64,000 bases of DNA. Source: Micromussa lordhowensis. Lineage: Eukaryota > Cnidaria > Anthozoa > Scleractinia > Lobophylliidae. The stretch's first letter is position 1, and every line of letters starts with the position of its first letter. The translations under genes and the position numbers were made by a program. Below, in pieces: positions 11,438-13,473 of this stretch. The stretch is from the NCBI GenBank assembly GCA_964020085.1, contig OZ026601.1, forward strand, positions 15,242,530 through 15,306,529, given 5' to 3'. Under the pieces are notes generated by a model, which did no database searches, was not told the DNA's origin, and saw only the letters and a list, made by a program, of their open reading frames with translations.

Positions 11438-11947
11438 TTAAGTTTTGACCGTCGTTGTTCCACAAAGTGTATCGCTGGGAACTAGACTCGTTTCTAGTTG
11501 CTCAGACTCTTGGTCCCAGGCCCCAAAACGCATGATATTCTGACCAATGTTTCTTTGTTTTTGGGCACGAAGTCTTTGCCTGATCTGTTCCTTATTCTTG
11601 GCATAATAAGATCTCCAATATTCGTTGATCCGTTCCCTGTTGTTTTTACAGTATTGGCTTCGGTAATTTCTGATGTGTTCCTTGTTTTGTTGACAATAGG
11701 CTCTCTGGCTGCTGGCGAGCCTTTCCCTGTTGGTTTCATACCACCTTTTACGACGTGATTTGAGAATCTCAGCGTTCTCGGTACGATATCGTTTTTGCCG
11801 GGCCAGGATATGCTCTCTGTTCTTTGCATAATAGTTTTGATGGTAGGCTTTCCTACAATCAACTATCTTGTCATTCCCCGACCGTTGATTGGAGCAATTC
11901 ATCTTGTGTGGTGTCTTACAAATAATGATTACCACTCTAGAAATCAC
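11438..11947 (-). CDS. N-x-E tandem-repeat basic protein of virus-like island
   Basis: A 169-residue uninterrupted frame. From about residue 35 to 135 it is built of roughly 14-residue tandem units of the form Y-x-x-N-(R/K)-E-x-(I/L), such as YYAKNREHILARQKRY and YCKNNRERINEYWRSYY, about seven in all. The repeats are strongly charged and helix-prone, suggesting a coiled or nucleic-acid-binding rod. It lies 48 bp downstream of the acidic protein gene on the same strand, as the third gene of a compact island headed by a packaging-type ATPase. An alternative start is the internal methionine at residue 16 (MNCSNQRS). Similar repeats occur in uncharacterised invertebrate proteins that I recall as element-associated, but no function is established. 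Confidence 0.6.
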   Translation of the reverse strand: MISRVVIIICKTPHKMNCSNQRSGNDKIVDCRKAYHQNYYAKNREHILARQKRYRTENAEILKSRRKRWYETNRERLASSQRAYCQQNKEHIRNYRSQYCKNNRERINEYWRSYYAKNKEQIRQRLRAQKQRNIGQNIMRFGAWDQESEQLETSLVPSDTLCGTTTVKT

Positions 11948-11995
11948 AAACTCTTATAAGAGTCACATGGCCAATTCAGTGTATCACTCTAAGGT

Positions 11996-12556
11996 TTAAA
12001 CCTCCCCTTCCGCTACGTCTTCGTCTTCGTCATTATCGGGGGGCAATTTCTTTTTCATTAGTCTGTTCAACAGGAATTTCCGTTTTGCCACCGGTGACTC
12101 GGCCGCCTCGTCAAAATCCATGTCATCTTCCTCAATAAAGCGTCGAAGAGTCTTCATGACTTTACGGTGTATTGCATCGTGTTTGATATGGTGAGTCCAT
12201 TTTAGACGCTCTAAATAAGTTCTTCGTAGCCTTCTTCTACTTACAGGTAACAGGGCGTTGAAAGCGGCATTTTCGGCATAGTGTTGGGATTTTCCTCTAT
12301 CCAGGAACTGTTGGACTTTCAGGTAGGTCTCATTGATATCTTCTCCGACTTTTTGACGTAAAGGGCGCCACGGATCTGGTTCAGCACCGTCGTCTGCTTC
12401 TTCTTCCTCTTCGGAGCTGCTAGTCTCTTCCTCTTCAGGCTCCTCTTCTTCCTGTTCCTCTTCTACCTCTTCTTCGTCTTCTTGTTCTTCTTCTTCTATG
12501 TTTTCATCATTGTTTTCTTCCACGGGGCCAAACATATCTGTTGAAGGAGAACGCAT
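11996..12556 (-). CDS. Acidic-N-terminal protein of virus-like island
   Basis: A 186-residue intact frame. Residues 13-60 are almost all Glu/Asp with a Ser run. After a DPWRPLRQKV motif (about 62-71) comes a basic, helical domain with FLDRGKSQHYAENAAFNALL, RRRLRRTYLERLKW and an EAAESPVAKRKFLLNRL segment, then a second acidic tail. It sits 92 bp downstream of the ATPase gene and 48 bp upstream of the repeat protein, all on the minus strand. This acidic-plus-basic layout recalls uncharacterised proteins encoded beside FtsK/A32-type ATPases in polinton or adintovirus-like insertions; that is memory of family context and not a computed match. No function is claimed. Confidence 0.65.
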   Translation of the reverse strand: MRSPSTDMFGPVEENNDENIEEEEQEDEEEVEEEQEEEEPEEEETSSSEEEEEADDGAEPDPWRPLRQKVGEDINETYLKVQQFLDRGKSQHYAENAAFNALLPVSRRRLRRTYLERLKWTHHIKHDAIHRKVMKTLRRFIEEDDMDFDEAAESPVAKRKFLLNRLMKKKLPPDNDEDEDVAEGEV

Positions 12557-12648
12557 GGTTCTCGTCGTGCTTCACCCAAGACAACACGTGCTTCAGATGA
12601 GCCGAAACGCTTGAAGTGATATTTTATATATCATTTTTTGCTCGGTGA

Positions 12649-13473
12649 TCAAACATCCTCTTTCCTAATTCTTCGATGCCAGCGCGGGTATCCTTCATGA
12701 GTCAAGAGGTGACTAAACACACGTTTCCTGTCGTCACTGGCAGGATGTAAATCCTGGACCGTGTACCCAAATGGTCGTTCGGTCACTTTTTGATACACGT
12801 CCATCATGTCTTGCCAACAAGTGGGAAATGCTTGAAGCAGTAAATTCCTCATCCCTAATTGATCTCGTGGATTTTTGAAGGCTATGACATAGTGGGCGTT
12901 CCTGGAAATACTCTTTGCGTATTTCCCTGGTGGAAACATGTCTTGGCACAAGTACAACACGGTGATATTTTGATGATGTGAATGTTTGGTGAATAAGTCC
13001 AGCAACTCTTTATCTTCACCTCCCTCGACCATCAGATCATCTAACACGAGTAAACCACCTTTAGGAAACCATTTTTGCAAATGGAAGGTGGTAGGAACCC
13101 CTTCGTGAAATTGCACACCAGCGTCTTTCATGTCTCGGAATCCATCTTGCCACGCCCCGTAGCAATAATGAATCATAGTGGGAGGGTTTACAAACAATTC
13201 TTCCAAATGATCCAAGAGTAAAGATTCGGTGAAACAAGTCTTGCCACAACCGGAAAGACCAACAATCAAGATACTAGAGGGTGTCTTGAACCGAAACGCT
13301 TCTCCCATTTCTATGCCATTTGGAATCCCATGACTCTTTTCGGTCGGAAATGTGATCTTTGGTACTTCTTGTGTTTTTTCGGATTCACTGCTTTGACAAC
13401 TATGCTTCTCATGACGGATTCTACTGTCTATACGAGAGAATAGTCTGTGACAATATTGACAATAAAGGGACAT
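12649..13473 (-). CDS. A32/FtsK-HerA-like DNA-packaging ATPase, virus-derived
   Basis: A 274-residue intact frame. Residues 5-26 form a zinc-finger-like knuckle (C5, C8, H21, C26). Residues 72-79, GLSGCGKT, are a Walker A loop and 139-146 (GGLLVLDD) the Walker B strand with an Asp-Asp end. Residues 165-180 include SHHQN and TVLYLCQDMF, the glutamine-bearing sensor strand, followed by SRNAHYVIAFKNPRD. This order matches packaging ATPases of Polinton/Maverick, adintovirus and related dsDNA elements, where the enzyme translocates the genome into the capsid. The length is close to the ~250 residues usual there. All motifs are intact with no in-frame stop. It leads two further minus-strand genes with short gaps. 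No capsid, protease, integrase or polymerase gene is adjacent. It could be an incomplete endogenous copy or a small element of a poorly known type. Confidence 0.8.
   Translation of the reverse strand: MSLYCQYCHRLFSRIDSRIRHEKHSCQSSESEKTQEVPKITFPTEKSHGIPNGIEMGEAFRFKTPSSILIVGLSGCGKTCFTESLLLDHLEELFVNPPTMIHYCYGAWQDGFRDMKDAGVQFHEGVPTTFHLQKWFPKGGLLVLDDLMVEGGEDKELLDLFTKHSHHQNITVLYLCQDMFPPGKYAKSISRNAHYVIAFKNPRDQLGMRNLLLQAFPTCWQDMMDVYQKVTERPFGYTVQDLHPASDDRKRVFSHLLTHEGYPRWHRRIRKEDV

Follow-up and report, generated by a model that had tools for sequence, protein, structure and literature searches.

The 64-kb stretch of the Micromussa lordhowensis genome analysed here (contig OZ026601.1, positions 15,242,530 to 15,306,529; hereafter the window) contains a compact island of three genes that is, very probably, the coding part of a non-autonomous mobile element derived from polintons (Mavericks). 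Full-length polintons of the same genome carry related terminal inverted repeats (TIRs) and probably mobilize the three-gene element; the two statements taken jointly, polinton derivation and mobilization by these TIR-sharing relatives, are likewise ones we consider likely. The evidence comes from the ends of the element, from the distribution of its genes in the genome and from the selection acting on them.

Gene content and ends of the element

The island consists of three open reading frames (ORFs) on the minus strand: a packaging ATPase gene (12649-13473, 274 amino acids from an ATG start), ORF2 (11996-12556, 186 amino acids, also from an ATG) and ORF3 (11438-11947, 169 amino acids from a GTG, or about 154 from the first ATG near 11902), separated by 92 bp and 48 bp, respectively. 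The ATPase has a Walker A motif (GLSGCGKT, residues 72-79), a Walker B motif (GGLLVLDDL, residues 139-147) and, as read from its sequence, an N-terminal C2HC zinc-finger-like motif, C-x2-C-x12-H-x4-C, at residues 5-26. The ORF2 product is acidic in its N-terminal part and rich in lysine and arginine in its C-terminal part, and that of ORF3 has YYxKNxExI-type repeats. The original prediction, made from the DNA alone, had described three uninterrupted minus-strand frames with gaps of 48-92 bp that encode a zinc-knuckle and Walker A/B ATPase, an acidic/basic protein and an N-x-E repeat protein, and each part of this description holds. It had delimited the island as 11438-13473, a range that covers the coding part; the element that encloses it is in fact 10,696 bp long and spans 10345-21040.

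The ends of this element are well defined. A left TIR (10345-10546, plus strand, 5'-ACTACTATACC...) and a right TIR (20841-21040, minus strand, ...GGTATAGTAGT-3') are 98.5% identical over 202 columns when the latter is reversed, which argues for a recent insertion, and both are flanked by the same six bases, GTTAGC, at 10339-10344 and 21041-21046. Comparison with the flanks of five further near copies places a sharp outer end at 10344/10345. A boundary at 11165, considered at first, was abandoned because the loci compared place the end at 10345. The element in the window has 5'-ACTACT, and the copies on C11 and two on C3 have 5'-AGTAGT, the published Maverick form; vertebrate Mavericks are described as having trinucleotide ends and 6-bp target duplications (PMC8097293). 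Between the left TIR and ORF3 lies an outer non-coding arm part (10547-11437) that is conserved among copies (six flank loci of five copies aligned). Upstream of the ATPase gene is a tandem-repeat array (13621-13815), GGT-type on the minus strand with periods of 6, 21 and 45 bp; it occupies the same place in other copies, and two loci (L049 and L050) have other tandem arrays there.

We searched the 580.8-Mb assembly with the first 236 bp of the element. The search returned 41 rows, a lower bound because 40 of 207 candidates were scored. Its ten facing TIR pairs, including those of the window and of C4, together with a separately identified element on C11, make 11 bounded elements. A perfect 6-bp duplication flanks 10 of the 11, and two of these lie in one duplicated flank, so that nine of ten are independent. 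Besides the window element, the duplicated sites are CGTCTG for the C4 element (8,189 bp), TCCTTC for C11:9861881-9865664 (3,784 bp), TAAATA for C3:41276438-41279453 (L052; 3,016 bp), ATCGAT for each of the two C3 elements in the duplicated flank (3,465 and 4,695 bp), CGTGGT on C5 (9,091 bp), ATGGCA for a further C3 element (5,216 bp), AACTGT for C1:46937905-46956691 (18,787 bp) and AACTGA on C6 (8,892 bp). Among the copies that have all three genes, the C11 element is the smallest. Its order is TIR, ORF3, ORF2, ATPase, repeat array, TIR, its matched stretches are free of stops, and it contains these three genes only; the island thus represents the complete gene set of a mobile unit.

That the three genes belong together is more than chance. 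All three proteins were matched by tblastn, in stretches of at least 60 residues, at 27 of 30 genomic loci; the exceptions are L011, which lacks ORF2, and L012 and L028, which lack ORF3 within the stretch examined. At L014 the matches to the three genes sit on opposite arms. The ATPase frame is at least 93% open, with no stop, in 27 of the 30 loci. Moreover, all three genes were under purifying constraint while their copies spread, although this signal leaves unsaid who benefits. A comparison across copies, which had been put forward as a check, gave pooled pN/pS (nonsynonymous to synonymous) ratios of 0.35 for the ATPase, 0.36 for ORF2 and 0.41 for ORF3 in a sample of 27, 24 and 24 sequences, respectively, from the 30 loci. 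Median dN/dS by dS bin was 0.26-0.32, 0.29-0.43 and 0.25-0.50 in the same order, so that purifying selection is seen on all three (medians 0.25-0.50).

Searches for homologues at E <= 0.01 returned 757 for the ATPase and 288 for ORF2, and the organisms named among the best 120 of each are corals: Oculina patagonica, Stylophora pistillata and Orbicella faveolata. Alignment of 22 ORF2 homologues gave identities of 61-97%. The structure model of ORF2 was too poor for a fold search (predicted local distance difference test score, 49.7), and in PHROGs the ATPase and ORF2 matched at chance level only. ORF3 matched two PHROGs families, one of unknown function (1.5e-8) and one of HNH endonucleases (4.7e-7), matches that may reflect the composition of its repeats. 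A scan of viral contigs with the ATPase, as a single sequence and then as an alignment, found no relative.

Full-length relatives and two types of packaging ATPase

The TIRs and the ATPase tie the small element to larger polintons in the same genome. Polinton genes were found at L037, L038/L041 and L042/L043, and include an rve integrase (8e-15), a DNA_pol_B_2 polymerase (3.8e-35), a Phospholip_A2_4 (PLA2-like) gene (3.4e-11) and weak adenain matches, together with genes that, judging from gene order, putatively encode capsid and penton proteins. The window TIR is 89.8% identical over 236 bp to those at L042 (left) and L041 (right), and the window ATPase is 72% identical over 216 amino acids to that of L038. 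The 18,787-bp element on C1 has both ends 91% identical to the window TIR, an ATPase at 72% identity and a capsid-type gene of 488 amino acids without stops; integrase and polymerase genes were observed in copies on C13 and C10. Full-length polintons share with the small elements their trinucleotide ends, 6-bp duplications, TIRs (about 90% identical over 236 bp) and an A32/FtsK-type ATPase (64-72% identical to that of the window). Perhaps they also share a repeat ORF near the end, since ORF3 weakly resembles (E 0.001, unmasked) a repeat ORF that a full-length polinton has close to its TIR. They differ in size, 18.8 kb as opposed to 3.8 kb, and in content: integrase, polymerase, capsid, penton, protease and PLA2 genes are missing from the small elements, in which the ATPase bears an extra zinc-finger motif and ORF2 and ORF3 come after it.

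The absence of other polinton genes extends beyond the island. Neither the integrase nor the two polymerase pieces of the same-genome relatives had a tblastn match in the 64-kb window, where a very distant polymerase could escape, and the same was true of the relatives' capsid, penton and adenain-type protease. Thus, the original prediction was right that no capsid, polymerase, protease or integrase gene adjoins the island, and its view that the ATPase fits the Polinton/adintovirus packaging type is supported: the ATPase is an A32/FtsK-HerA-type motor, 72% identical to that of a full-length polinton in the same genome. The element in the window has TIRs, a 6-bp duplication with trinucleotide-type ends and an FtsK/HerA-type ATPase, as an autonomous polinton does, and lacks the rve integrase, double jelly-roll capsid, penton and adenain-type protease of one. 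Ends in common with an autonomous-type polinton of the genome, and an interior without its enzymes, are what is expected of a non-autonomous polinton derivative.

Two types of ATPase can be told apart across the genome (all counts of rows here are lower bounds). Scored capsid rows lie within 5 kb of none of the 88 zinc-finger-type rows (at least 74% identity) and of 49 of the 55 rows of the other type (below 74%). Alignments that begin no later than residue 11, and therefore span the zinc-finger part, were obtained for 64 of the 88 zinc-finger-type rows and for 0 of the 55 others; none of the 49 capsid-linked rows begins before residue 48. Row counts differ slightly from locus counts, as two places yield two rows each. 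The strict motif C-x2-C-x12-H-x4-C is present in 29 of the best 120 ATPase homologues, and among the 91 without it are several whose N-terminus is decayed or truncated. In a FastTree phylogeny of 111 of 128 ATPase sequences (the rest were too short or gappy), all 33 tips with a looser form of the motif belong to a single clade of 54 tips (support 0.96; the node just inside it, 0.49) that leaves out both capsid-linked ATPases in the tree. A candidate fused ATPase in a 2061-amino-acid frame (L022/L039) was rejected as a run of N read as an open frame.

Movement, palindromes and probable dependence on relatives

Elements with the same TIRs that lack the three genes, or have parts of them only, indicate that these genes are not required in cis for movement, and suggest that the ends alone are enough for movement in trans. 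We envision a scenario in which the integrase and terminus-primed polymerase of full-length relatives would act on the shared TIRs, so that small elements are copied and inserted. Lacking genes for a shell, a polymerase and an integrase, the element probably depends on its full-size relatives as a parasite; the missing enzymes and shared ends suggest a satellite that relies on a helper for both replication and spread.

Many copies are rearranged into palindromes. Arm sequence is found on both strands in 17 of the 30 loci (at L017 by its TIR only), and all 14 pairs of neighbouring ATPases within 4 kb are divergent (82 of 143 rows examined). The outer arm parts of the C4 element are 99.9% identical (1,083 bp compared). 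The fold-back point differs among palindromic copies, and the tandem array lies at or near the turning point in several of them. The likeliest origin of these head-to-head forms, we infer, is that a linear, end-primed molecule would snap back on itself during strand-displacement copying. Frequent palindromes would fit end-primed linear replication in corals. A full-length-type polinton locus (L037) has a gene-holding inverted repeat of 1.4 kb (1-1438 versus 7517-8954) that is 99.9% identical, so fold-back rearrangement also occurs outside the small elements. At L049, a Fic-domain open frame (2728-3336; 1.2e-11) lies upstream of a divergent three-gene copy and could be cargo or host sequence.

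Why the element has kept a packaging motor is a question on which we can offer a more speculative answer. The added zinc finger could recognize the element's own DNA, and the motor could then load that DNA into the relatives' capsids, a form of packaging piracy that we propose tentatively and that would make the element a satellite and not a dead remnant. Alternatively, the motor might be a selected or inherited passenger. By extension, the endogenous polintons of animals may have satellites: elements of 3.8 kb without a capsid gene, which would take integrase, polymerase and capsids from full-length polintons with the same ends and use a private zinc-finger motor to steer their own DNA into those capsids; we hold this, too, as a conjecture somewhat short of an even chance.

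Ordinary deletion of full-length polintons offers a different account, in which end-adjoining genes were kept by chance, the derivatives move in trans, the genes are useless to the element and the selection is inherited. This account, which we think unlikely but deserving of serious attention, is in line with the gene-less and part-gene forms with the same ends and duplications, the frequent palindromic rearrangements and the broken frames. It would call for a full-length source with a zinc-finger ATPase, and such a source was not seen in the 88 rows compared with capsid rows. Nor did other polinton query proteins match when four near copies that are not palindromic were searched over 5-7 kb upstream of the ATPase, or when 7.5 kb were searched around each of two copies whose ATPases are about 75-76% identical. 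Furthermore, the three-gene set persists, at a dN/dS of about 0.3, over an ATPase dS that also reaches about 0.3, it recurs at L049 with an ATPase 76% identical (ORF3 there is in two frames), and in L037 and L038 it is other genes that come after the ATPase.

Two further explanations fare much worse. The original prediction had left open whether the island is a fragment or a minimal, poorly described element, and the minimal element fits best. That the window element is a decayed full-length adintovirus or polinton, which lost capsid, polymerase and integrase after insertion, might be argued from its 10.7 kb with only three polinton-family genes. However, the DNA that separates these genes from the right TIR is no eroded viral sequence but an unrelated repeat, copied at 98-99% identity; elsewhere 3.8 kb hold the whole three-gene unit, and the TIR identity speaks for a recent insertion, making decay very improbable. 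Still less probable is a domesticated host cluster whose ATPase the coral uses for a purpose of its own: selection on all three genes and intact frames in many copies are in keeping with it, but the 88 ATPase rows are dispersed, TIRs and target duplications surround the bounded ones and palindromes are frequent.

Several observations nevertheless weigh against a polinton-derived, helper-mobilized element. One of the 11 bounded elements (C5:21554521, 4,105 bp) has no duplication; the 3,016-bp C3 element, which has the same TIRs and a perfect duplication, showed no trace of the three genes, and the 3,465-bp element has parts of ORF2 and ORF3 only. Some copies have stops or shifted frames, and incomplete or stopped sequences were dropped from the dN/dS analysis, which biases it to intact copies. 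For the separation of the two ATPase types, 141 of 581 candidates were scored in the ATPase search (143 rows) and 88 of 744 in the capsid search (90 rows), which makes both counts lower bounds, and the 74% cut was set after the identities had been seen. Six of the 55 other-type rows are likewise without a capsid row nearby, and in two of them the alignment begins at residues 14 and 19, respectively, overlapping the zinc-finger part; 21 of the 54 clade tips lack the motif, several of them with cut N-termini. Finally, the capsid gene of the relatives had no Pfam match, and a sequence search of the PDB gave one chance row.

A polinton-derived satellite would have counterparts in other systems. 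Virophages and other satellite viruses likewise depend on a larger co-resident, as the coral element would, and the packaging ATPase of virophages belongs to the same superfamily; virophages encode their own capsids, whereas the window has no match to the same-genome polinton capsid. If piracy is true, the closest parallel may be the phage satellites of the phage-inducible chromosomal island (PICI) and Staphylococcus aureus pathogenicity island (SaPI) type, which are small, use a helper's capsid and bring their own packaging specificity factor. These are bacterial, terminase-based and unrelated by descent; for the coral element, missing enzymes and shared ends suggest that it may depend on a helper. 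Non-autonomous relatives of a DNA transposon are a known kind, and foldback transposons and miniature inverted-repeat transposable elements (MITEs) share with the element ends in common with an autonomous relative, palindromic forms and gene-less derivatives; unlike it, they are not known to carry selected viral packaging genes. Among the open-access titles found, none concerned capsid-less polinton satellites in animals or a private packaging motor, an outcome that cannot prove absence.

On whether animal polintons make particles, the vertebrate study (PMC8097293) states that Maverick particles have not been observed. A lineage that has lost every other polinton gene looked for, yet retains a motor and two small genes under selection, suggests that packaging happens. 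If packaging piracy is real, parasitism of the kind practised by phage satellites would have a eukaryotic counterpart among the endogenous viruses of animals.

The foreign segment and other features of the window

In sequence comparison the window copy resembles the three-gene element on C11, except that 7 kb of a different repeat lie between its ends; it thus holds a foreign fragment within polinton ends. This segment (13814-20842) belongs to another repeat family and is 98-99% identical to stretches at several other places in the genome. It lacks, at 15601-15604, about 3.5 kb that four other copies have; in other copies the repeat runs about 2.7 kb further left (three left flanks) and stops near 20842 (three right flanks). 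No polinton arm or end was present in the flanks read of four copies of the segment.

Inside the segment, an open frame on the plus strand (18208-18720, stop to stop) has an F-box-like match (8.7e-11) and a CxC7 match just under its cut-off (8.7e-6), with 22 homologues, and another copy of the segment has a weak Ulp1-type piece. The segment, which also has a 15-bp array at 20557-20818, is possibly a KDZ-type or other large transposon, although this is a guess. A frame at 15153-15611 was considered as a viral OTU linked to a polymerase, an idea taken from a published account (PMC11071308), and was rejected, as Pfam found no OTU and the frame lies in the foreign repeat.

Elsewhere in the window, a stretch at 29230-29557 has two tRNA-Thr predictions and also shows 75-81% similarity to a portion of the 3.5 kb absent from the foreign segment; it is possibly a tRNA-derived short interspersed nuclear element. 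Frames at 38000-38829 contain a YVDD motif and are, we presume, reverse-transcriptase-like. A minus-strand frame of 579 amino acids (41290-43029) resembles a piggyBac-type transposase, and a single-exon frame at 44448-45242 is presumably BTB/POZ-like.

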